From IMG/VR virus record IMGVR_UViG_3300021440_000049, positions 1 through 43,403 of that record: a stretch of DNA of 43,403 bases, one strand, 5' to 3'. Source of the stretch: a virus. Below the pieces are notes generated by a model. The model saw only the letters and a list, made by a program, of their open reading frames with translations, was not told where the DNA came from and made no database searches. Position numbers and translations under genes: made by a program. Below, in pieces: positions 986-43,403 of this stretch. The stretch's first letter is position 1. Each line of letters opens with the position of its first letter.

Positions 986-1182
986 ACTACCGCGGCAAAC
1001 GGCTGTTCGCCGGCCGTTTGTTCGCCGGCCAACTGTGGGGGCCGCCGGTCGTGACGGGAGGCCCGCCGCCGATATGGACGGCGGGCGGGAGCGCGACCGG
1101 GCACCGCAACCGTCGCCAGCCGCCGAAGCGTCGCCGCCGTCGCGACACCGACGATGACGTGCTGCTGTTCCTGCTGCGTTAA
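982..1182 (+). CDS. Small basic protein of unknown function
   Basis: This is a 66-residue protein whose ATG overlaps the stop of the repeat protein (ATGA). The N-terminus holds a duplicated LFAG motif (RLFAGRLFAGQL). Proline- and glycine-rich sequence follows, then a strongly basic stretch (RRQPPKRRRRR) and a short acidic-hydrophobic tail (DTDDDVLLFLLR). Small proteins with a similar start occur next to head genes in related phages, but I cannot name a role. Its stop codon lies inside the CGTTAAAACG palindrome of the element at 1176-1203, so translation of this gene ends within a regulatory site. Confidence 0.65.
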   Translation: MNYRGKRLFAGRLFAGQLWGPPVVTGGPPPIWTAGGSATGHRNRRQPPKRRRRRDTDDDVLLFLLR

Positions 1183-1203
1183 AACGAAATAACACCGCAG
1201 ACT
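1176..1203 (+). promoter_or_regulatory. 28-bp element before the head genes (copy 1)
   Basis: These 28 bases are identical to 5040-5067. The element starts with GCGTTAAAACG, an instance of the CGTTWWAACG palindrome, and ends in CAGACT. Read as a promoter core, the two ends could be a poor -35 (TGCGTT) and a poor -10 (CAGACT) about 17-18 bp apart. It lies in the 54-bp gap before the protease gene. Head-gene promoter or activator site is inference; the identity between the two copies is directly visible. Confidence 0.6.
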
Positions 1204-1236
1204 CTTCTTCAAACTTGTCCCCAGAATCGGGGCAGT

Positions 1237-2235
1237 ATGAAAAACTGGTACTCGATCAAAGCCGTGTCCGACGCCGTCGCCGAATTGTCGGTGTTCGACG
1301 AGATCGGCTTCTGGGGCGTGCAGGCCAAGGACTTCGTTCGCGAGGTCAAGGCGATCACCGCGCCGACGATCAAGCTGTACATCAATTCGCCGGGCGGCAG
1401 CGTGTTCGACGCCGTGACGATGTTCAACGCCCTGGCGATGACCGGCAAGACGATCGAAGTCCACGTGCTCGGCGTCGCCGCCAGCGCGGCCAGCTACCTC
1501 GCGATGGTCGGCTCCAAGGTCGTGATGCCCGACAACACGTTCATGTTCCTGCACAACCCGATCAACGGGGTTTACGGCAATGCCGAGGACATGCGCGAGA
1601 TGGCCGACGTGCTCGACAAGATCGGCGCGTCCCTCACCGCTACCTACGCCAAGCGTTTCAAGGGAGACGAACAGGCGCTGAAGGACATCCTCGCGGCCGA
1701 GTCGTACCTGACCGCGGCCGAGTGCCTCGAGTACGGCCTGTGCGACGAAGTGGTGCCGGCGATCGAGGCCACGGCCAAGTTCGACATCGACCACGTGCCT
1801 GAGGCGGTGCGTGCCGTCGCCTTCAAGGCTGCCGCGCCGGCGCCCGTCGTCGAGCTGCCGAGTCTGCCCGAGCAGATTGCCGCGGCGCTCGACGCCGCCG
1901 GGCTGGCCGAGTTCCAAGCGGCGTTCAGCACCGACGCGGCGATCGCCGACGCCGACTCACTGACGGCCGCCGTCGCCGCGGCGCGTGACATCCGTTCGTT
2001 CTGCGCGCTCGCCGGCAAGGCCGACATGGCGCCGTCGCTGATTCGCGCCCGCAAGTCGGTCGCCGAGGCCCGCGCCGCGCTGCTCGCCACGCTGGCCGCG
2101 GCCGACGAGGACACGTTCGTCGACACCGCACCGCGCAGTGCGCCGAAGACCGCACCGGCCGGCGCGGACGCGCCAATGAATTCAACCGCCCTGTGGGCAC
2201 AGATCAACGCGATGAAAGCAGGAGTGAAGCAATGA
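1237..2235 (+). CDS. ClpP-type head maturation protease, possibly with C-terminal scaffold
   Basis: The 332-residue protein starts with a ClpP/S49-like fold. YINSPGGSVFDAV lies at residues 48-60, the nucleophile region GVAASAAS at 79-86 (serine 83 likely), and the histidine in FLHNP at 104-108. ClpP-type head proteases process capsid components during head assembly. Residues from about 200 onward are alanine-rich and helical and may act as a scaffold, as the C-terminal part of lambda gpC/Nu3 does; a nested scaffold start is possible but I see no decisive site. The stop overlaps the gpD-like start (ATGA). No strong Shine-Dalgarno precedes the ATG; the sequence just upstream is CGGGGCAGT. Confidence 0.9.
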   Translation: MKNWYSIKAVSDAVAELSVFDEIGFWGVQAKDFVREVKAITAPTIKLYINSPGGSVFDAVTMFNALAMTGKTIEVHVLGVAASAASYLAMVGSKVVMPDNTFMFLHNPINGVYGNAEDMREMADVLDKIGASLTATYAKRFKGDEQALKDILAAESYLTAAECLEYGLCDEVVPAIEATAKFDIDHVPEAVRAVAFKAAAPAPVVELPSLPEQIAAALDAAGLAEFQAAFSTDAAIADADSLTAAVAAARDIRSFCALAGKADMAPSLIRARKSVAEARAALLATLAAADEDTFVDTAPRSAPKTAPAGADAPMNSTALWAQINAMKAGVKQ

Positions 2236-2585
2236 CCGCACTGACCCAGGGCATCCAGACCGGCGAGTTCCTGCTGTCGGAAGCAGACGGTCAACTGAGC
2301 CGTGAGCAAGTGACCGTCACCGTCGCGGGCGCCGTCGCCCTGCCGTCGGGCAGCGTGCTCGGCAAGATCACCGCCACCGGCAAGTACGTCAAGTACGACG
2401 AGGCCGGCACCGATGACGGCCGCCGCGTCGCCGCCGCCGTGCTGCTGAACGCCCTGCCCGGCACCAACGGCGACTACAAGGCGACCGTCTTCGTGCGCAA
2501 CTGTGAGGTCGCCAGCGCGATGCTGACTTTCAGCGATGCGAACGGCGTGGCCGACCTGAAGGCCCTGAACGTCATCGTTCGCTGA
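2232..2585 (+). CDS. Head decoration protein, lambda gpD-like
   Basis: The protein has 117 residues with the typical decoration-protein layout. The N-terminal part contains GEFLLSEADGQLSREQVTV, then a small beta-rich body with LPSGSVLGKITATGKYVKY and a C-terminal LKALNVIVR. Proteins of this family trimerise on the capsid surface and stabilise the expanded shell. The start at 2232 is preferred over 2193 because AGGAG lies 8 bases upstream and it gives an ATGA overlap with the protease stop. The order protease, decoration protein, major capsid protein matches lambda C-D-E. Confidence 0.88.
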   Translation: MTALTQGIQTGEFLLSEADGQLSREQVTVTVAGAVALPSGSVLGKITATGKYVKYDEAGTDDGRRVAAAVLLNALPGTNGDYKATVFVRNCEVASAMLTFSDANGVADLKALNVIVR

Positions 2586-2614
2586 ACCCCCAAAATCACC
2601 CCGGAGACCTTGCA

Positions 2615-3604
2615 ATGCTGCTCGACGTATTCAACAGCGACGCGTTCCACCTGACCAAGCTGACCAAGGCGATCAACCTGATCCCGTATCGTCCGACGCG
2701 CATTCAAAGCCTCGGTTGGTTCGCCCAGGAGGGCATCGACACGACTTCGGTCGCGATCGAGATGCAGAGTGACGTGCTCTCGCTGGTGCCGGTCGCGGCG
2801 CGCGGCGCCCCGATGCCGATCAAGAATCTGCCGCGTCGCAACGTGCGCCCGTTCAATACGGTGCACCTGCCGCAGCGCGTCGCCTTGTACGCCGACGAAG
2901 TCCAGCAACTGCGCGCGTTCGGCGAGCAGACCGAGACCGAGCTGGCGATGGCCCGGCTGAACAAGAAGCTGGCGGTCGCCCGTCGCGACCTCGACCTGAC
3001 GATCGAGTTCCAACGCATCGGCGCGGTCAAGGGTCAGGTGCTCGACGCCGACGGTTCGACCGTGCTGCTGGACCTGTTCACCGAGTTCGGCGTGTCGCAG
3101 CAGACGCACGACATGGTGCTCGACAACGACGCCACCAAGGTTGCGATCAAGTGCAACGAAGTGCTGCGCAAGGTCGAGGACAAGCTGGGCGGCCAGATGA
3201 TGAGCGGCGCCCGCGCACTGTGCTCCAACGAGTTCTTCGACGCGCTGATCGGCCATCCGGCGGTCGTCGAGACCTACAAGTATCAGCAGGGCGCCGTGTT
3301 GCGCGAAGACCGCCGTCGCGGCTTCGAGTTCGGCGGCATCTTCTGGGAAGAGTACCGCGGCACGATCGGCGCGACCCGGTTTATCGAGGCGAACGCGGCC
3401 TACGTGGTTCCCGAGGGCGTGCCCGACCTGTTCGTCACGTACTACGCCCCGGCGCCGTACATGGAGACGGTCAACACCGAGGGCCTGCCGTTCTACGCGA
3501 AGCAGGAACTGATGGACTTCGGCAAGGGTGTGGATGTCGAGACCCAGTCGAACCCGCTGCACCTGAACACCCGCCCGAACGCGATCGTGAAGGTCACGAT
3601 CTAA
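2615..3604 (+). CDS. Major capsid protein, lambda gpE family
   Basis: This 329-residue protein matches the phage major capsid protein E family. It opens with DVFNSDAFHLTKLTKAIN and has IPYRPTRIQSLGWFAQEGI near residues 22-40. It also carries the family-typical VVPEGVPDLFVTYYAPAPYMETVNT near 270-295. The length is normal for the family. GGAG precedes the ATG by 8 bases. It builds the icosahedral head under the gpD-like protein encoded just upstream. Confidence 0.93.
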   Translation: MLLDVFNSDAFHLTKLTKAINLIPYRPTRIQSLGWFAQEGIDTTSVAIEMQSDVLSLVPVAARGAPMPIKNLPRRNVRPFNTVHLPQRVALYADEVQQLRAFGEQTETELAMARLNKKLAVARRDLDLTIEFQRIGAVKGQVLDADGSTVLLDLFTEFGVSQQTHDMVLDNDATKVAIKCNEVLRKVEDKLGGQMMSGARALCSNEFFDALIGHPAVVETYKYQQGAVLREDRRRGFEFGGIFWEEYRGTIGATRFIEANAAYVVPEGVPDLFVTYYAPAPYMETVNTEGLPFYAKQELMDFGKGVDVETQSNPLHLNTRPNAIVKVTI

Positions 3605-3608
3605 GGTC

Positions 3609-3959
3609 ATGGCGCTGGGCTACCAAGCCCGTGCAATGCAAAGGGGCCTCGCCAAACTCGGCGAGGCTTCTTTACTTGACGGGGTCGCTTGCGGAAACGT
3701 GAACCTGCAAAGGGACACGCTGATCTACGCCGGCATCGGCGACACCGCGGACGACAACCCCGTGGTGCGGTACGACCTGGCGGTCATCTCGTCGGAGCAC
3801 AACCCGAGGGTCGGCCAACGCCTCGTTCACCCGGACGGCGACTACCGCCTCGACCGCTTGGTGGATGACAACAGGTTCGTGCGTCGATTCATCCTCGTCG
3901 TCGTGCCGGTTGCGATCGCCGACTTGAGCGCCGCCTACGAAGTCGAGGCGGTGGCGTGA
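3609..3959 (+). CDS. Head-tail joining protein, probably gpFII-like
   Basis: This is a 116-residue protein between the capsid and gpZ-like genes, where lambda carries its head completion and connector genes. The sequence is mixed alpha/beta: NVNLQRDTLIYAGIGDTADDNPVVRYDLAVISSEHNP, then a predicted strand-rich end (FVRRFILVVVPVAIADL). I assign the connector role mainly from position and size; sequence support is modest. It ends in a GTGA overlap with the next gene. Confidence 0.6.
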   Translation: MALGYQARAMQRGLAKLGEASLLDGVACGNVNLQRDTLIYAGIGDTADDNPVVRYDLAVISSEHNPRVGQRLVHPDGDYRLDRLVDDNRFVRRFILVVVPVAIADLSAAYEVEAVA

Positions 3960-4576
3960 AGGTCACCATCGACGCCAAGGGCGCGATGCCGGCGCTGGCC
4001 GACCGCCTCGGACGCATCTCGGGCAGCGTGATCGGCATGGCGGCGCGCGACGCCGTGAACGAGGTCATCAAACGCTTCGAGGGCGACGCGCTGAAGGGCA
4101 TGACGGCCGACATCGGCCTGACGCCGGCCTACGTCAAGAGCAAGACCGACCTGCAACTCGCCAACAGCGTGTTGAACCCGAAGGCTCAGATGGTCACGCG
4201 GGGCAACCTGACGATCCTCGGCCGCTACCCGCTGCAGCAACTGACGCAGCCCGCAAGCCGCGCAAAGGGCGACCCGAGCCGCGGCATTGGGGCGGGCCGC
4301 AAGCAAGCAGGCGTGCGCGCCACGATCAAGCGATCGGCGCCGGCCGCCCGCGACAAGTGGTTCACGATGCGCCTACGCGCCGGGGCCGGCCCTGGTGAGA
4401 ACGTCGGCGTGTTCGTGCGCGCTACCGGTCGCACCAAGCCGAAGCACATCTACGGCCCGGCCCCGTACTCGCTGTTCCGCCATCAGATCGGCGTCTACGC
4501 CAGCGATGTCGAAGCCGACCTCGCCGAAACCACGATGCGGACGATCGTCGACCGCGTCGAGAAAGCGATCGCATGA
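3956..4576 (+). CDS. Minor tail protein, gpZ-like
   Basis: The protein has 206 residues and starts at GTG (GTGA overlap). The N-terminal half, with ISGSVIGMAARDAVNEVIKRF, a GLTPAYVKSKTDLQLA segment and VTRGNLTILGRYPLQQL, resembles the prophage minor tail protein Z family. The later part contains KWFTMRLRAG and VGVFVRATGRTKPKHIYGP. In lambda, gpZ acts at the tail end that joins the head. The order Z-like, U-like, tail tube supports the call. Confidence 0.75.
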   Translation: MKVTIDAKGAMPALADRLGRISGSVIGMAARDAVNEVIKRFEGDALKGMTADIGLTPAYVKSKTDLQLANSVLNPKAQMVTRGNLTILGRYPLQQLTQPASRAKGDPSRGIGAGRKQAGVRATIKRSAPAARDKWFTMRLRAGAGPGENVGVFVRATGRTKPKHIYGPAPYSLFRHQIGVYASDVEADLAETTMRTIVDRVEKAIA

Positions 4577-5040
4577 CTACATCCCACCACAGTGCCGAGG
4601 CCGTCGGCACTGAGCTGAGCACGCGGCTCGCCACGCGCACCGTCGCGCAAGGCGCCGAGACCAACCTTGGCGCCACGGTCTACCGCGGCCGTCGTCACAT
4701 CGACGACACCATGATCCCCTGCGTCGTGGTCATCGAAGGCGATGACGTGGTGGCGCGCGCGAACGCGCGCACTGAAGTGCAGCTCGACCAGCGCTACGTG
4801 CTGTTCGCCTACGTGCCGTGCGATCCGAACCACCCGAACGACGCAGCGCACGCAGCGCTGCGCGACATGAAGCGGGCGCTGTTCAACACCGACGGCAAGG
4901 CCGACAACCGACTCGGCGGCAAGGTCAAAGAAATCGAGTACCTCGGTCGCGACATCGGCCCGCGTGCCGACGGCGCGAGTTTCGTGTTGGCCGCCCTTGA
5001 AGTTGGGGTCGCGTACGTCGAGAACCTGGCGAACCCGTAG
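4573..5040 (+). CDS. Tail terminator-like protein (gpU position)
   Basis: This 155-residue protein overlaps the gpZ-like gene by ATGA and lies directly before the tail tube gene, where tail terminators are found. The body is mixed alpha/beta with TMIPCVVVIEGDD, RYVLFAYVPCDPNHPND, a helix HAALRDMKRALFN and a final beta region FVLAALEVGVAYVEN, consistent with the terminator fold. Sequence identity to lambda gpU is not obvious, so the role rests on position and fold-like pattern. Its stop touches the CGTTAAAACG element. Confidence 0.65.
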   Translation: MTTSHHSAEAVGTELSTRLATRTVAQGAETNLGATVYRGRRHIDDTMIPCVVVIEGDDVVARANARTEVQLDQRYVLFAYVPCDPNHPNDAAHAALRDMKRALFNTDGKADNRLGGKVKEIEYLGRDIGPRADGASFVLAALEVGVAYVENLANP

Positions 5041-5067
5041 CGTTAAAACGAAATAACACCGCAGACT
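5040..5067 (+). promoter_or_regulatory. 28-bp element before the tail tube gene (copy 2)
   Basis: This element is identical base for base to 1176-1203, with the CGTTAAAACG palindrome at 5041-5050. It lies in the 78-bp gap before the tail tube gene, one of the few gaps in the virion operon. Tube proteins are needed in many copies, so a dedicated promoter here is plausible. A TAGACT at 5085-5090 is an alternative -10 if the palindrome is an upstream activator site. Confidence 0.6.
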
Positions 5068-5118
5068 TTCCAACCCCGGTCCCGATAGACTGACCCGAAT
5101 CGACAAGGAGCATTGAGC

Positions 5119-5868
5119 ATGGCTGCACGTGGTTTTCTAGGCGCTGGCGACCTCTACATGGCGCGCCAAGTTTCCGGCGTGTGGGAGGATTACTCGGGCC
5201 CCTACGAGGCGACCAAGGTTGAAATCAAGCCGAACGTCGAGCTGAAGGAACAGGTCAGCAAGGGCCGTTCCACCTACGGCCAAGTGATCGAGACGGTCGC
5301 CATCGCGCAACCGTCCGACCTGACGATTGACCTGGCCGAAGTCAACAAAGAATCGCTGGCGATCGCGCTGCTCGGCACGACCGCCGCGCTGGCGCAGAAC
5401 AGCGGCACGTTGACCGCCGAAGTGTTGGTCGCCAAGCTCGACAAGTGGGTGCCGCTGTCGAAGGCCGCGCTGACCGGCTCGCAAACCGTGACCAACTCGG
5501 CTGCCAGCACGACCTACGTCAAGGGCGTCGACTACCTCGTCAACGAGCAACTCGGCTGGATCAAGGCGATCGTCGGCGGCGCGATCACCGATGCGCAGTC
5601 GCTGAAGGTCACGAGCACCTACGCCGCGATCACCGGCACCGAGATCAAAGGCTCGACGCAGACCCAACTGCGCGTGCGCTTCAAGTTGGACGGCAAGAAC
5701 TTCGCCGACGACCTGCCGTGCATCGTCACAGTCCACGAGGCCGTGATCGCTGCTGACGCCGCGTTCGACTTCCTGAGCGACGACTTCGCCACGGTCACGA
5801 TGCCGGGTCGCATGAAGACCCCGACGGGCTACACCGAGCCCTTCACCGTGCACCTGCGCAACGCCTGA
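5119..5868 (+). CDS. Major tail tube protein
   Basis: The protein has 249 residues. GFLGAGDLYMARQ at the N-terminus, an early strand region with YEATKVEIKPNVELKEQVSK, and SDLTIDLAEVNKESLAIALLG are typical of tube proteins of Mu-like and lambda-like siphophages. A C-terminal segment ends in FTVHLRNA. The ATG at 5119 is chosen because AGGAG lies 8 bases before it; an in-frame TTG at 5113 sits too close to that site. It polymerises around the tape measure protein encoded next. No chaperone gene separates the two. Confidence 0.85.
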   Translation: MAARGFLGAGDLYMARQVSGVWEDYSGPYEATKVEIKPNVELKEQVSKGRSTYGQVIETVAIAQPSDLTIDLAEVNKESLAIALLGTTAALAQNSGTLTAEVLVAKLDKWVPLSKAALTGSQTVTNSAASTTYVKGVDYLVNEQLGWIKAIVGGAITDAQSLKVTSTYAAITGTEIKGSTQTQLRVRFKLDGKNFADDLPCIVTVHEAVIAADAAFDFLSDDFATVTMPGRMKTPTGYTEPFTVHLRNA

Positions 5869-5931
5869 TGACGGGGGCGCCACGGCGGGGGCGCCAATGC
5901 CCGCCACGCACGAACAGCACCGGATGATCCA

Positions 5932-15865: not shown

Positions 15866-15875
15866 CGTTATAACG
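15866..15875. promoter_or_regulatory. CGTTATAACG palindrome before the lysis cassette
   Basis: A perfect 10-bp palindrome lies in the gap between the tail and lysis operons, 12 bases before the first lysis ATG. It is one of seven CGTTWWAACG sites in the window. It includes TATAAC, which could serve as a -10 box, but I see no good -35. A bound protein here would probably control entry into the lysis genes. Confidence 0.55.
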
Positions 15876-15887
15876 CAAGGATTGTCG

Positions 15888-20361: not shown

Positions 20362-20644
20362 GATCCTCGGCAATTTAGGGTGTTGGGGGGGGTGCCATTG
20401 TAAGCGCGTCGTCAGGTAGCGGGCCGGCGTAGCTTTCGGCGTAACTTCACCTGCGGAGAATTTATGACGCCCCGTAGGAGTGCTCTGGTGCCAGCATCAA
20501 TCAACCACCTATGGAGAATGGTCAATTTGCTATTTTCACCTATGAAATTAACTTCGTTTTAACGTAGTGCATCGCAACGCCACTTGCCGGCACTTGCGGC
20601 CCTGGCGTAGATTTCGGCGTAACCCTCCACTGCGCCACAACGAA
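20362..20644. promoter_or_regulatory. Integrase upstream region, candidate attP
   Basis: This noncoding stretch of 283 bp is more AT-rich than its surroundings. It holds two near-identical 20-bp direct repeats, GGCGTAGCTTTCGGCGTAAC at 20426-20445 and GGCGTAGATTTCGGCGTAAC at 20604-20623. It also has two CACCTATG copies, a short tandem of CACTTGCCGG/CACTTGCGGC at 20581-20600, and a CGTTTTAACG palindrome at 20555-20564. Repeats of this kind beside an integrase gene suit arm-type integrase sites. I cannot identify the core crossover site without the host sequence. Confidence 0.5.
20555..20564. promoter_or_regulatory. CGTTTTAACG palindrome before the integrase
   Basis: One of seven CGTTWWAACG sites, 81-90 bases before the preferred integrase start. 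The extended match is TTCGTTTTAACGTAGT, less symmetrical than the sites at 37047 and 42745. Likely operator for integrase expression. Confidence 0.5.
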
Positions 20645-23603: not shown

Positions 23604-24187
23604 GTGAGACCTCGGCCGAGCGTCCCGACGCGACGGTGCGCGTTGTTGCCCGCCAGCGCGAACACGCTGCCGACGAGGCCTCGCGTGCGGGCGCGATACC
23701 GCCGGTTGTACTCGGCGTCGCTCAGGCGACCGGGGGGCTTCACGTCGGGGCCTTTGCCGAGCGCGTAGACGGGGCGCGGGTAGAGCCGGCCGCCGTCGCT
23801 GTCGCGGCGGTACTCGGCGATGCGTAGGCCCTTGCCGTGGAGGTTCGACACGACCGCCCGCGCGTGGCTGACCGTGATGCCAAGTTCTTCAGCGACCTCC
23901 CGAGCGGTGAGACGCCCGTGTTCGGCGACGAGGGCCAATGTGCGGGCCTTGAGGGTCATGGTGTGAGCGGCCCGTGACGGCGCGGCATGGTCGGGGGCGG
24001 CGAGGGCTGGCGCGCGGTCTGCGAGGGGTTGTCGATACTCGAACCCGCCATCGGTGCCGGCGTAACCGCTGGCGTCACCCCACCAGTTCAAGTCGTTGTT
24101 CCAACGGCGCTCGACGTAGCGCAAGAACGCCCATCGGCCGCCGAGCATCTTGACGGGTCGCCACGAGAACCAAGGCGCCCAAGTCAT
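23600..24187 (-). CDS. Winged HTH protein
   Basis: The 195-residue protein starts at the ATG overlapping the upstream PP-loop gene's stop. The N-terminus is aromatic-rich (WAPWFSWRPVKMLGGRWAF, RRWNNDLNWW). The centre has a clear winged HTH: LALVAEHGRLTAREVAEELGITVSHARAVVSNLHGKGLRIAEYRR. The C-terminus RLSDAEYNRRYRARTRG is basic. It is probably a sequence-specific DNA-binding protein of the early operon. Confidence 0.65.
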   Translation of the reverse strand: MTWAPWFSWRPVKMLGGRWAFLRYVERRWNNDLNWWGDASGYAGTDGGFEYRQPLADRAPALAAPDHAAPSRAAHTMTLKARTLALVAEHGRLTAREVAEELGITVSHARAVVSNLHGKGLRIAEYRRDSDGGRLYPRPVYALGKGPDVKPPGRLSDAEYNRRYRARTRGLVGSVFALAGNNAHRRVGTLGRGLT

Positions 24188-24930
24188 AGCCCGCACCCCG
24201 CGCCGACGAAGCACGCGCCCTCGTCGTCAACGTCGGCAACGTGGTTCTTCCCATGCCGCGCCCACATGACAACCCCGTGGATGCCGAGGGCGGCGAAGCG
24301 TTTCGGGCGAAACATCGGCTTGCCGACTTCGACCTCAAGCGCCGAGACGCGGGCGACCTCGGGTGGCGTCAGGCGCAGGATGTCCGCCCGGTTCGCGTTG
24401 ACGCACGGGTTGCATTCGAGGCTGCGGTGCGGTAGCGGCTTGAGCCCGGCGCGTTCGAGAAGCGCATCGCGCATCGCCTCAGTGTGGGCGTAGAGCGGGT
24501 GCCACAAGGGGCGCTCGCCGTGGTACTCCGACGACTGAACCCACTCGGGGGTGTCCGCCCGTGCCGCGCTTTCCTCGCGCCGCTTCCCGACGAGGGTTAC
24601 GGCCGACCGCTCGGGGTCGACGCGGTCGAGCCATTCGAGGTACGGAAAACCTTTGAGCCAGGCCGTGCAGAACTGTTGCCCGTTGCCGGGAAAGCCGCTC
24701 TTGCGGCGCACGAGTTCGGTCATGCCCTCGCTGGCGATGCGAACGGGCTCGAACCCCGCCGAGCGCGCCAGCGCTTCCCCGACCTCGACCTCAACCTTCC
24801 ACGTTGGCGAGGCCCACCCGGTATCGCAGTACGCGACGACCACTCGGTCGAGAAGCCCTAGGCCGGCTTCGTGCGCCCATCGGATCAACGCTCGCGAGTC
24901 GTTGCCGTAGCTGGAGGATACAACGAACAT
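24184..24930 (-). CDS. PP-loop ATPase, PAPS reductase-like
   Basis: This 248-residue protein has an N-terminal PP-loop (VVSSSYGNDSRALIRWA), a variant of SGGxDS, typical of the phosphoadenosine phosphosulfate reductase/adenine nucleotide alpha-hydrolase superfamily. A late CNPC pair (SLECNPCVNANRADILRL) may bind a metal or Fe-S cluster. Such enzymes adenylate a substrate and are used in sulfate reduction, tRNA thiolation and DNA phosphorothioation; the substrate here is unknown. The ATG at 24930 follows the polymerase stop region by two bases. No other phosphorothioation gene is present. Confidence 0.75.
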   Translation of the reverse strand: MFVVSSSYGNDSRALIRWAHEAGLGLLDRVVVAYCDTGWASPTWKVEVEVGEALARSAGFEPVRIASEGMTELVRRKSGFPGNGQQFCTAWLKGFPYLEWLDRVDPERSAVTLVGKRREESAARADTPEWVQSSEYHGERPLWHPLYAHTEAMRDALLERAGLKPLPHRSLECNPCVNANRADILRLTPPEVARVSALEVEVGKPMFRPKRFAALGIHGVVMWARHGKNHVADVDDEGACFVGAGCGL

Positions 24931-29513: not shown

Positions 29514-29542
29514 ATGCTATTGCGTTTTAACGAAGTCGTCAA
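29514..29542 (-). promoter_or_regulatory. Early leftward promoter with operator in the spacer
   Basis: On the minus strand TTGACG (29542-29537) and TAGCAT (29519-29514) are 17 bp apart, a good sigma70-type match. The spacer holds CGTTAAAACG (plus-strand CGTTTTAACG at 29523-29532), one of the seven palindromes. A protein bound there would block the polymerase. The first ATG is at 29489, about 18 bases from the expected transcription start, without an obvious Shine-Dalgarno. A second half-like site, GCTTTTTAACG, lies at 29545-29555. Confidence 0.65.
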
Positions 29543-29841
29543 TTGCTTTTTAACGCGGCGAGACGTGCGCGCGCTCGGTATGCTTTGATCTTGTCGGCGT
29601 TGGCGGCGTAGTAGGCCGCTTGGCATGCTTTGATCTTGTCGGCGTTGGCGGCGCGGTAGGCGGCGTCCTGCGCTTTGATCTGCTCCGCGTTGGCGGCGCG
29701 GTAACTCGCCTGAGCGGCACGTATTGCGTCGGCGTTGGCGGCGTAGCGGGCCGCTTTGACTGCTTTGATCTTGTCGGCGTTGGCAGCGGCGTAGGCAGCC
29801 GCGCACCGCCGAGAATCCCGTAGTTCGGCTTGACCTTCACG
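29539..29841 (-). pseudogene. Start-less repeat-protein frame directly behind the MazG-like stop
   Basis: A 100-codon open frame follows the MazG-like gene in the same frame after its UGA. It reads AELRDSRRCAAAYAAANADK then repeats of about 14-15 residues such as YRAANADKIKACQAA, ending RARLAALKSN. It contains no ATG, GTG or TTG. Codon choice with GC-rich third positions marks it as the coding frame. Similar repeat tails occur in phage proteins with a Cys-rich head, so it may be a 5'-deleted remnant; readthrough of UGA (followed by C) or frameshifting from a GTG at 29840 are alternatives. It ends inside the -35 box of the next promoter. Confidence 0.5.
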
Positions 29842-36251: not shown

Positions 36252-36745
36252 TCTCACTAGACGAAGCGACGAAAGACTGGGCCGTTGACGAAGGTGGTTG
36301 GAAGATCGCGCCGGCCGGCCTCGCGTGGATTGCAGAAGGCGCGCGGGCCATCCTCGGCGACAGGGCCCGCATCGGCGACGGGGCCAGCATCGGCGACTGG
36401 GCCAGCATCGGCGACTGGGCCAGCATCGGCGACGGGGCCCGCATCGGCGACGAGGCCAGCATCGGCGACTGGGCCAGCATCGGCGACAGGGCCAGCATCG
36501 GCGACGAGGCCAGCATCGGCCCGAACTCGTCCGACGCCGTCGACCTCGGCTCGGCCGACGGATACCGCAAGTGCGTCGCGCAGGTTGACGGCGTTGCGTA
36601 CATCGGCGCCGGGTGCCGATGGTTCACGCTCGACGCCGCGCTAGCGCACTGGTCGGCCGCACCGGCAGGTACGCGAGACACGACGCTGTGCTTACTGCAG
36701 GCGGCGGTCGCTGTGGCGAAACTTCGCGGTTGGAGGCACGCATGA
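36248..36745 (+). CDS. Left-handed beta-helix protein with hexapeptide repeats
   Basis: The 165-residue protein has nine hexapeptides of the form xA(R/S)IGD at residues 39-92, the signature of a left-handed beta-helix: each repeat puts isoleucine on the inside. The C-terminal domain (YRKCVAQVDGVAYIGAGCRWFTLDAALAHW) is globular. The helix would have only about three turns. There are no acyltransferase motifs beyond the repeats. I recall similar phage proteins with the same IGAGCRWF ending and no known function. A trimer or a DNA-mimicking shape is possible but unproven. Confidence 0.7.
   Translation: MISLDEATKDWAVDEGGWKIAPAGLAWIAEGARAILGDRARIGDGASIGDWASIGDWASIGDGARIGDEASIGDWASIGDRASIGDEASIGPNSSDAVDLGSADGYRKCVAQVDGVAYIGAGCRWFTLDAALAHWSAAPAGTRDTTLCLLQAAVAVAKLRGWRHA
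36362..36523 (+). repeat. 18-bp tandem repeats encoding hexapeptides
   Basis: Nine in-frame 18-bp units (GCCAGCATCGGCGACTGG and variants) encode the hexapeptides. The repeats differ mainly at the first and third codons. The high DNA identity indicates recent expansion or recombination. Confidence 0.85.
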
Positions 36746-37056
36746 ACATCCGCATCGAATCAACCCTCACCGACCCGCCCGAGTCGCGCACGACGCTGTC
36801 GGGCGAGGCGGCGCTGATCTTCCGCGTCGCCACCGTGGGCTGGCCGGTCGAGGCACGCGTGAAGCTCGGCAAAGAGCCCGAGGCGTTCATCCGATCGAGG
36901 CGCCTGGCGGCCATGTGCCAACGCGGCGATGCGGTCGTCTTGGAGGCCACGGGGTTGTCACCCCGGACGGACCACTCGGTCGCCGCGATCCTGCTGCACG
37001 GGGTGTCGCAGGTCAAGGTCGTAGGCCGCTTCGTCGTGCCTGGACTATTGCGTTAA
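36742..37056 (+). CDS. Small protein before the cytosine methyltransferase
   Basis: This 104-residue protein opens NIRIESTLTDPPESRTTL and is beta-rich (AALIFRVATVGWPVEARVKLG, then AVVLEATGLSPRT and VKVVGRFVVPGLLR). No family is recognised. It is coupled to the hexapeptide protein by ATGA; its stop codon lies inside the operator-like palindrome at 37047-37064. Confidence 0.55.
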   Translation: MNIRIESTLTDPPESRTTLSGEAALIFRVATVGWPVEARVKLGKEPEAFIRSRRLAAMCQRGDAVVLEATGLSPRTDHSVAAILLHGVSQVKVVGRFVVPGLLR

Positions 37057-37064
37057 AACGCAAT
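37047..37064. promoter_or_regulatory. Palindrome over the cytosine methyltransferase start
   Basis: ATTGCGTTAAAACGCAAT is symmetrical in 16 of 18 bases and contains CGTTAAAACG at 37051-37060. Its right end includes the first bases of the methyltransferase ATG (37063). Binding here could block transcription or the start site, allowing direct control of the methyltransferase genes. Confidence 0.55.
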
Positions 37065-37962
37065 GGTCTACTACAATGAATTCGACCCGAAGCTGGCGCC
37101 GTGGCTCTACGAGTTGATGGACGCCGGGCTCATCGCCCCCGGCTACGTGGATACCCGCTCGATAGAGGACGTAGCCCCGGATGACCTGCGCGAGTTCACT
37201 CAATGCCATTTCTTCGCCGGTATCGGTGGGTGGCCCTACGCCTTGCGCCTCGCCGGCTGGCCCGACGATCGCCCCGTGTGGACCGGCTCGTGTCCGTGCC
37301 AACCTTTCAGCGCGGCAGGCAAAGGCGCAGGGTTTGCTGATGAGCGGCATCTTTGGCCCGCTTGGCACTGGCTCATCTCGCAGTGCCGCCCTGGCGTCAT
37401 CTTTGGCGAGCAAGTTGCAAGCAAGGACGGCCTCGCTTGGCTCGACCTTGTTCTCACTGACCTGGAAGTCGCGGGCTACGCCGCAGGGGCGGTCGATCTG
37501 TGCGCTGCGGGCGTCGGCGCCCCGCACATCCGACAGCGGCTGTGGATCGTGGCCGACACCGACGCGCCAGGACGCGGCGAGCAGCGGCTCAGCGGGCTAC
37601 TCGACGGCGAGCGGTCGCCACAGTGGCACGACGCTGACCGATGCGGCGCGATACGCGGGCTGGCCGACGCCGATGGCGGGCACGCTGGCGCAGAACGGCA
37701 ACAACGCGGACGAATTCCTGGCGGGGCGGGCGGACCAGACGCGCGGCAAGCCACTGAGCGAGCAGGCATTCGCGCTGGCCCCTGGTCAACCGTCGAGTGG
37801 GTCCAATGCCGCGACGGAAAAGCCCGGCCAGTTAAACCCGGCGTTCAGCCTTTGGCTGCAGGGCTATCCGGAAGAGTGGGCGTCTTGCGGGGCGCGGGCA
37901 ATGCAATCGTCCCGCAGGTTGCCGAACAAGTCATAAGGGCGTACCTTGAAAACATCAACTAA
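37063..37962 (+). CDS. dcm: DNA C5-cytosine methyltransferase
   Basis: This is a 299-residue protein. Motif I FFAGIGGW at 50-57, motif IV PCQPFS at 78-83 with catalytic Cys79, motif VI as EQV at 116-118 (instead of ENV), motif VIII QRLWIVAD at 158-165 and the late motif X GNAIVPQVAEQVIRAYL are present. The target-recognition region at about 170-250 is short. It opens VYYNEFDPKLAPWL, typical of phage members. Methylation would protect phage DNA from restriction. A second conserved protein is encoded out of frame inside it. Confidence 0.9.
   Translation: MVYYNEFDPKLAPWLYELMDAGLIAPGYVDTRSIEDVAPDDLREFTQCHFFAGIGGWPYALRLAGWPDDRPVWTGSCPCQPFSAAGKGAGFADERHLWPAWHWLISQCRPGVIFGEQVASKDGLAWLDLVLTDLEVAGYAAGAVDLCAAGVGAPHIRQRLWIVADTDAPGRGEQRLSGLLDGERSPQWHDADRCGAIRGLADADGGHAGAERQQRGRIPGGAGGPDARQATERAGIRAGPWSTVEWVQCRDGKARPVKPGVQPLAAGLSGRVGVLRGAGNAIVPQVAEQVIRAYLENIN
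37340..37936 (+). CDS. Conserved protein encoded out of frame inside the cytosine methyltransferase gene
   Basis: This 198-residue frame lies wholly within the methyltransferase gene in another frame. It starts GIFGPLGTGSSRSAAL and continues KLQARTASLGSTLFSLTWKSRATP, RSICALRASAPRTSDSG, two WPTP motifs (GSWPTPTRQDAA, GWPTPMAGTLAQNG) and GQLNPAFSLWLQGYPEEW. I recognise exactly this set in proteins encoded beside or within phage cytosine methyltransferase genes, so it is unlikely to be a chance frame. AGG precedes the ATG by 8 bases; the frame opens further upstream at 37181. Function unknown. Confidence 0.7.
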   Translation: MSGIFGPLGTGSSRSAALASSLASKLQARTASLGSTLFSLTWKSRATPQGRSICALRASAPRTSDSGCGSWPTPTRQDAASSGSAGYSTASGRHSGTTLTDAARYAGWPTPMAGTLAQNGNNADEFLAGRADQTRGKPLSEQAFALAPGQPSSGSNAATEKPGQLNPAFSLWLQGYPEEWASCGARAMQSSRRLPNKS

Positions 37963-38248
37963 AGAACGCGCCGCCGCGCTACTCGCCGCAGCCCTCGACC
38001 TGGCCCGCAAGCAGGGTTGGCACTCGTTGACGCACGAGTCAATCGCCAAGGCCGCCGACGTGTCGCCGTCGCTGGTCAAGGTGCGCCTCGGCACCATCGC
38101 CGCCCTGCGCCGCGCCGTGATGCGCGAGGCCGTCAGGCAGGGCGTCGTGCGCGTCGTTGCAGAAGGCCTGGTGGCGGGCGACCGGACGGCGCGGCGCGCC
38201 GACGCGGCGCTGCGCTCGGCGTGTGCCGAGTGGATGGTGCGCGCGTGA
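37946..38248 (+). CDS. TetR-like HTH protein without ligand domain
   Basis: This 100-residue protein starts with TTG; AAGGG lies 6 bases upstream, and it overlaps the end of the methyltransferase gene by 17 bases. The first 60 residues match the TetR DNA-binding domain (ALLAAALDLARKQGWHSLTHESIAKAADVSPSLVKVRLGTIAAL). The ligand-binding/dimerisation domain of full TetR proteins is missing. It sits between two methyltransferase genes, so controlling them is a plausible inference. Confidence 0.75.
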   Translation: MKTSTKERAAALLAAALDLARKQGWHSLTHESIAKAADVSPSLVKVRLGTIAALRRAVMREAVRQGVVRVVAEGLVAGDRTARRADAALRSACAEWMVRA

Positions 38249-42384: not shown

Positions 42385-42442
42385 AATAGCGCCCTCAAAA
42401 TTGCCCCCATAAAAATAGCGCCCTCAAAATTGCCCCCATAAA
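42385..42442. repeat. Two 29-bp direct repeats (iterons)
   Basis: The two units are perfectly identical and adjacent, running AATAGCGCCCTCAAAATTGC then CCCCATAAA. A partial third copy (AATAACG) follows. Possible iterons for an initiator such as the primase-helicase. Confidence 0.75.
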
Positions 42443-42744: not shown

Positions 42745-42776
42745 GTGTTGCGTTTAAACGCAACACGAGGGACAAT
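42745..42776 (+). promoter_or_regulatory. Promoter with perfect 22-bp palindrome before the Mor-like gene
   Basis: A 22-bp perfect palindrome at 42745-42766 has the core TTGCGTTTAAACGCAA. TTGCGT (42748-42753) and GACAAT (42771-42776) are 17 bp apart, a fair sigma70 match, so the palindrome covers the -35 and most of the spacer. The expected transcript start falls within a few bases of the GTG at 42785. Confidence 0.65.
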
Positions 42777-42784
42777 CGGCCCCT

Positions 42785-43273
42785 GTGCAGAACAGCATCT
42801 ACGACGACCTCGGCGCCAGTGTGGGCTACACCGCCGTGGTGAAGCTCAAGACGTGGTACGCCGGGGGGTGGCTCTACATCCCGCACGCGAGCCGGGTCAC
42901 GCCCGAGCACTGCCTGGCGAAGCTGATCGGCATGCCGGCCCTGCGCGCCCTGGTGCGCGACTTCGAGGCCGACCAACACCTGTGGCTGCCGCTCGGCGAC
43001 GAGGAACGCTACGCCCGCGACCGGGACATCGCGTTGCGGCTCGCCACGGGGGACGCGCCGGCCGAGATCGCCACGCAGTTCGGGATCACCGAGCGGCGCA
43101 TCGAGCAGTTGCGCGACGAGATGTTGGAATCAGGAATTCTGGAACTTGCCGCGCAGCGTCGGCGCACCCGTGGCTTGCGCGGCCGCCCGCCCCGCGGGCA
43201 ATCGCCGTTCGCGGACGGGTTGAAAATTTTGGGAACGGGCGAGGTTTCCGGCGACACCCCCCTCCCTGGTTGA
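42785..43273 (+). CDS. Mor-family transcription activator
   Basis: This 162-residue protein starts with GTG. YDDLGASVGYTAVVKLKTWYAGGWLYIP matches the dimerisation and beta-strand part of the Mor/C family of Mu, and RDIALRLATGDAPAEIATQFGITERRIEQLRDEM (about 80-113) is its HTH. The C-terminal 45 residues are basic and disordered. Mor/C proteins activate middle or late phage promoters that lack a good -35. No Shine-Dalgarno is visible, and the promoter suggests a leaderless mRNA. The function as an activator is inferred from family. Confidence 0.75.
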   Translation: MQNSIYDDLGASVGYTAVVKLKTWYAGGWLYIPHASRVTPEHCLAKLIGMPALRALVRDFEADQHLWLPLGDEERYARDRDIALRLATGDAPAEIATQFGITERRIEQLRDEMLESGILELAAQRRRTRGLRGRPPRGQSPFADGLKILGTGEVSGDTPLPG

Positions 43274-43310
43274 AGCGGTCGGCGGGCTGGCGCTACGTTT
43301 ACGTTTGGTG

Positions 43311-43403
43311 CGGCCCCACGGCTGCGCCAGCGGCCCCACGGCTGCGCCAGCGGCCCCACGGCTGCGCCAGCGGCCCCACGGCTGCGCCAGCGGCCCCACG
43401 GCT
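43311..43403. repeat. 20-bp tandem repeats at the right edge
   Basis: Four full and one partial unit of CGGCCCCACGGCTGCGCCAG run into the window end without a single mismatch. No gene is visible in 43274-43403. A repeat of this type often stops assembly, so the true copy number is unknown. Confidence 0.9.

Follow-up and report, generated by a model that had tools for sequence, protein, structure and literature searches.

An exact repeat precedes the head and tail genes

The stretch analysed here, hereafter the window, is a viral contig of 43,403 bases (IMG/VR record IMGVR_UViG_3300021440_000049) that carries genes for an integrase, capsid protein E and a lambda-type decoration protein and, near its right end, a gene whose product resembles Mor, the activator of the middle promoter of phage Mu. 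Two exact copies of a 28-base-pair (bp) repeat, GCGTTAAAACGAAATAACACCGCAGACT, lie among its head and tail genes (Table 1). The first runs from the stop codon of the open reading frame (ORF) 982-1182 into the gap ahead of a ClpP-type head maturation protease gene; the second begins where ORF 4573-5040 stops and is located in the gap ahead of the gene for the major tail (tube) protein. The initial annotation of this DNA had described the copies as matching at every base between differing flanks, and as occupying the two main gaps of the head and tail operon; both descriptions are borne out, the latter by the ORF and gene positions. The repeat has no other occurrence in the window with up to 3 mismatches, and such a pair is not expected by chance (0 expected from 100 dinucleotide shuffles). 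The record itself is probably incomplete, since neither a terminase nor a portal was detected in it with queries from Curvibacter phage PCA1.

A 16-bp site is conserved in place in related phages

Relatives were reached by three routes: a search with the capsid protein gave a handful of distant ones, a search with the tail tube protein gave 18 loci, and the tail-tube alignment gave 78. The nearest named phages are Curvibacter phage PCA1 and Acidovorax phages ACF1 and ACPWH. On first inspection of the upstream regions, direct repeats of other sequences were seen in exactly these two gaps (CCCCTGAAATTGGGCCGCAG in L007, AGCGAAGCGCTGCCGTAAGACA in L009 and CGAAATTGTGCCGCAG in L012). The part common to the phages is 16 bp long, CG(A/C)AAT-N4-CCGCAG, and was found at a fixed place in 117 of the 122 regions upstream of protease and tube genes, starting 69 nucleotides (nt; interquartile range 66-70) ahead of the start codon of the protease gene and 91 nt (83-94) ahead of that of the tube gene. 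Because the sequence is phage-specific, the exact 20-mer CGTTAAAACGAAATAACACC has no match in viral contigs. A near-identity search of the first 12 kilobases (kb) of the window against named phages also gave no match, and a bacterial genome collection held one distant capsid relative only.

The two halves of the site behave differently: the left half is near-constant, whereas the right half is fixed within a phage and differs between phages, being CCGCAG in most of them, CCGTTG at all four PCA1 sites, CCGTAA/G in G006, RCGGAC in G008, (C/G)CGTTA in G037 and CCACAG in G043. An unbiased comparison set the protease upstream region against the tube upstream region of the same phage: of 43 phages, 33 had a best 18-mer match of 15/18 or more, perfect in 14, while 34 and 2, respectively, of 300 cross-phage pairs reached these values; a site resembles its partner more within a phage than between phages. 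A phage-specific right half is what would be expected if the sites track a changing trans-acting protein.

A -10 hexamer follows the site at a fixed distance

When the sites are aligned, information content is found in the 16 bp and then again in a hexamer, xAxAxT, with none in the -35 region between them. The best -10 match lies 21-22 bp past the site in 94 of the 117 upstream regions, compared with 7-8% in a random-position control. The 16-bp site would then cover about -50 to -35 relative to the predicted start of transcription.

These results bear on the promoter proposals of the initial annotation. Its general idea, conserved promoter elements with an operator-like palindrome, is supported by conservation in place: the element, whose absence from the same places in related phages had been named as counter-evidence, is present there. 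Its first reading, with TGCGTT/AGCGTT as -35 and CAGACT as -10, is not supported, neither hexamer being conserved as such in relatives: CCGCAG forms the right half of the 16-bp site, the CAG of CAGACT is part of the putative activator site, and the hexamer that is conserved as -10 comes 21-22 bp downstream of it. The alternative that it offered, an activator site with the -10 at CAGAAT and TAGACT, is strongly supported by the spacing in relatives. CAGAAT stands where it had been placed, TAGACT moves by one base from 5085-5090 (Table 1), and the distance from palindrome centre to hexamer, given as 42-43 bp, is 43 bp in both copies.

Further sites lie on the late-gene strand

Scans of 19 whole phage records returned 72 sites on the late-gene strand and 3 on the other, against 5 on both strands together in a reversed-sequence control, and 65 of the 72 have their -10 at 21-22 bp. 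For phages with unusual right halves the scan patterns were derived from the protease and tube sites of the same phages, and it is the further sites of these phages that count as independent evidence. Besides the protease and tube genes, the recurrent places are the gap near terminase and portal and the inside of the phrog_4408 gene, ahead of the final tail genes. One relative, L015, carries a reversed-strand insertion of about 2.1 kb (3800-5930) between the tail terminator and the tail-tube promoter, its late site being intact. In L003, L114, L115, L116 and L118 the tube gene match is interrupted near residue 128 or exceeds there that of the other relatives by about 200 nt.

A Mor/C-like gene is the proposed activator gene

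The Mor-like protein of the window matches phrog_836, as do Mu Mor and Mu C, and its sequence assigns it to the Mor/C activator family. Homologues, reached through the tail-tube relatives, were found in 13 phages of the group, 11 of which match the Pfam Mor family PF08765 (best E value 2.8e-10), and the gene has a fixed neighbourhood in these relatives; a direct search of viral contigs with the window protein confirmed none. The predicted structure (predicted local distance difference test score, 88.8) has a C-terminal helix-turn-helix. The recognition-helix motifs offer a lead only: phages whose left half is of the CGAAAT type and whose right half is CCGCAG, CCGTTG or close to these have RR, the two CGCAAT phages having a known activator (G001 and G002) have RH, G043, the phage with CCACAG, has SN, and G038 has ER. 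Two 29-bp direct repeats, AATAGCGCCCTCAAAATTGCCCCCATAAA, lie in the AT-rich gap before the Mor-like gene (window 42385-42442), and a 20-bp tandem repeat closes the record past it (window 43310-43399).

A palindrome overlaps both late sites

The two copies are identical over 28 bp instead of 16-18 because a palindrome, CGTTWWAACG (W, A or T), overlaps each late site on its left. It occurs 7 times in the window, against a simulation mean of 0.04, with all copies at or near gene borders, whereas other palindromes of the same make-up occur there 0 or 1 times; none of 22 relatives' records holds more than one copy. In two of the 7 the palindrome lengthens to a 16-mer, TTGCGTTWWAACGCAA, and one of these two precedes the Mor-like gene. 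The most plausible reading is that the palindrome serves as operator for a second regulator specific to this phage, which may be a repressor able to close the late promoters directly; that this regulator is a repressor we infer, because AT-rich windows in general yield sigma-70 matches at least as good as those at the other palindromes. PHROG and Pfam scans of candidate regulators found an AlpA-like and a TetR-like protein and no classical immunity repressor. The TetR-like helix-turn-helix protein (window 37946-38248; phrog_8723), which has no ligand domain and is encoded in the operon behind the palindrome with its core at 37051, is a candidate binder. Tandem repeats of 45 nt, encoding a 15-residue periodic protein (window 29548-29799), adjoin the promoter of the gene for the single-stranded DNA (ssDNA)-binding protein.

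Table 1. Features of the window discussed in the text
Feature	Position	Strand	Remarks
28-bp repeat, copy 1	1176..1203	+	before head protease gene
Palindrome CGTTAAAACG, overlapping left end of putative activator site	1177..1186	.	one of 7 window copies
Putative activator site CGAAAT-AACA-CCGCAG, head late promoter	1185..1200	+	conserved in place in relatives
Inferred -10 hexamer CAGAAT, 21 bp after site	1222..1227	+	21-22 bp spacing in 94/117 sites
ClpP-type head maturation protease, nearest gene downstream of promoter 1	1237..2235 (ATG 1237)	+	PF00574 3.9e-28, phrog_133
28-bp repeat, copy 2	5040..5067	+	before tail tube gene
Palindrome CGTTAAAACG, overlapping left end of putative activator site	5041..5050	.	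one of 7 window copies
Putative activator site CGAAAT-AACA-CCGCAG, tail late promoter	5049..5064	+	conserved in place in relatives
Inferred -10 hexamer TAGACT, 21 bp after site	5086..5091	+	21-22 bp spacing in 94/117 sites
Major tail (tube) protein, nearest gene downstream of promoter 2	5119..5868 (ATG 5119)	+	phrog_807 9e-37
Palindrome CGTTATAACG, just before ORF starting near 15882	15866..15875	.	
Palindrome CGTTTTAACG, before integrase gene	20555..20564	.	
Palindrome CGTTTTAACG, in spacer of TTGACG-N17-TAGCAT (minus strand), before ssDNA-binding protein gene	29523..29532	.	
Perfect-arm palindrome TTGCGTTAAAACGCAA, on TTGCGT-N18-TACAAT, before DNA methylase/TetR-like operon	37048..37063 (core 37051)	.	
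Perfect palindrome TTGCGTTTAAACGCAA, upstream of Mor-like gene, on promoter-like TTGCGT-N17-GACAAT	42748..42763 (core 42751)	.	
Mor/C-like protein, proposed activator	42785..43273	+	phrog_836 late transcriptional activator 8e-13 to 1.5e-12

Elsewhere in the window, the gene upstream of the head promoter (ORF 224-985; region 1-800) contains 42-nt (14-residue) tandem repeats, and L009 has a similar 42-nt repeat gene at the equivalent position. Tandem repeats of 18 nt at 36338-36535 encode hexapeptides G-D-x-A-x-I, typical of a left-handed beta-helix, and a gene resembling phosphoadenosine phosphosulfate reductase (phrog_424) lies on the minus strand at 24184-24930.

Discussion

We consider it highly likely that each repeat holds two overlapping protein-binding sites at a late promoter dependent on a Mor/C-like activator, the left palindrome being a second operator. 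The phage's own Mor/C-like protein would bind the right-hand 16 bp, where it would substitute for the missing -35 element and recruit the host sigma-70 RNA polymerase to the two -10 hexamers. Late in infection, this would switch on the head genes (protease, decoration and capsid) from the first promoter and the tail genes, from the tube gene onwards, from the second. The palindrome would be an operator specific to this phage and common to five other of its promoter regions, probably for a repressor also able to close the late promoters. The promoter half of this reading is very well supported; the protein half, with the Mor-like protein as activator, is probable.

Several observations weigh against it: (i) The 16-bp site lacks dyad symmetry, CG(A/C)AAT and CCGCAG not being inverted copies of each other, unlike the site in Mu; in the CGCAAT phages the two half-sites rather resemble direct repeats at a distance of 11 bp. 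We therefore say that these promoters work like Mor/C promoters and do not count them as strict members of that class. (ii) Taken alone, the window protein matches PF08765 below the cut-off (E value 0.006-0.013), comparing its profile with Mu Mor/C gives a weak match (E value 0.001, probability 20%), and a structure search gave only common helix-turn-helix matches, with Mor not among the matches listed. Because this likeness to Mor is weak, binding of the protein to the sites is inferred from site geometry, family and gene neighbourhood. (iii) Just two of the 4-5 expected sites are visible in the window: the terminase-portal part is missing from it, and the in-gene site of the relatives has been lost.

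An unlikely alternative is that the promoters are as described and answer to another activator, of phage or host, the Mor-like gene having some other role, for example at a middle promoter. The link between the protein and the sites is indirect, Mu has two such proteins with different targets (PMC4287176), and many records, incomplete ones, have no Mor-like gene. However, the five records longer than 45 kb that lack it each end between primase and terminase small subunit, its usual place; the geometry of the sites is that of Mor/C, and no other conserved activator was seen adjoining the late genes.

We regard as very improbable that the repeats are activator-independent sigma-70 core promoters with an embedded repressor operator, TGCGTT/AGCGTT serving as -35 and CAGACT as -10. 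The spacing between these hexamers is 17 bp and the edges of the repeat fall near them, but they match TTGACA at 1/6 and TATAAT at 3/6 positions, and no sigma-70 promoter-like site was found in window 1100-5300. In relatives the first hexamer is unconserved and CCGCAG varies (CCGTTG, CGGAC), while the -10 keeps its place 21-22 bp further on.

Slightly less probable still are sequences without a promoter role that mark boundaries of module exchange or stem from a recent duplication. The elements do lie at gene borders in a mosaic genome, and the reversed segment of L015 entered the same gap; this would, however, leave unexplained the fixed-distance -10, the strand bias and the site inside the phrog_4408 gene, and a phage-specific sequence would hinder exchange between phages. 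Least probable of all is an RNA element (attenuator, riboregulator or antitermination site), which would suit the leader regions of two gene blocks but has no Rfam match, and against which stand a site within coding DNA and a pattern typical of DNA-protein contact, with two conserved 6-bp blocks separated by roughly one turn of the helix and, in addition, a -10.

A wider proposal is tentative, and we hold it to be almost, though not quite, as probable as its opposite: that a large group of integrase-type siphophages use a Mor-type activator whose non-dyad site co-varies with the recognition helix, giving phage-private late regulons, and that in the window a second operator overlies the late sites, enabling a single repressor to shut early and late promoters. 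To our knowledge, few temperate siphophages beyond the lambda and Mu models have had their late gene control worked out. The part of the literature that we searched does not describe Mor-type late promoters in phages other than Mu-like ones, and a late promoter set of Mor/C type with an unequal, phage-private site in integrase-type siphophages is apparently undescribed there. With sites, -10 hexamers, an activator gene and several dozen natural variants now given, tests of this promoter class could begin immediately, and the site and activator variants that change together form a natural set for learning how Mor-family proteins read DNA.

Comparison with known systems

In phage P1 (C1) and mycobacteriophage L5, a short repressor operator is repeated at many promoters throughout the genome, late ones included. 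The palindrome of the window may likewise be an operator dispersed across promoters, although with only 7 copies.

Curvibacter phage PCA1 and Acidovorax phage ACF1 agree with the window in gene order and in having a Mor-like gene, and their 4-6 late sites are placed alike. The PCA1 sites lie at 4727, 8629, 13624 and 55191, and the putative late activator of this phage is UZZ64568. In contrast to the window, PCA1 has the right half CCGTTG, and neither phage has the CGTTWWAACG palindrome. The paper describing PCA1 does not mention promoters (PMC9763317).

The closest functional models come from phage Mu. At its middle promoter Pm, a dimeric Mor-family activator binds a 16-bp site at -51 to -36, in a promoter with a -10 and no -35 (PMC4287176). 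The promoters described here likewise combine a putative 16-bp activator site with a -10 hexamer and no -35 hexamer, their proposed activator falls in the same PHROG (phrog_836), and the distance from site to -10, about 23 bp at Pm by the published coordinates (PMC4287176), is 21-22 bp here. They differ in that: (i) the sites belong to late promoters, with several per phage; (ii) their half-sites are unequal (CGAAAT/CCGCAG); and (iii) the phages are of the integrase type with a lambda-like capsid protein E, whereas Mu is transposable. Mu C activates Plys, PI, PP and Pmom, with PI directly before the capsid protease gene I (PMC4461284). As with C, a single activator would serve several scattered late promoters, one of them before the protease gene. 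In contrast to the C system, the site sequence is another one, a site regularly stands at the tail tube gene as the second fixed location, the others lie before the portal gene and inside the phrog_4408 gene, and the window adds a second operator that overlaps the late sites.

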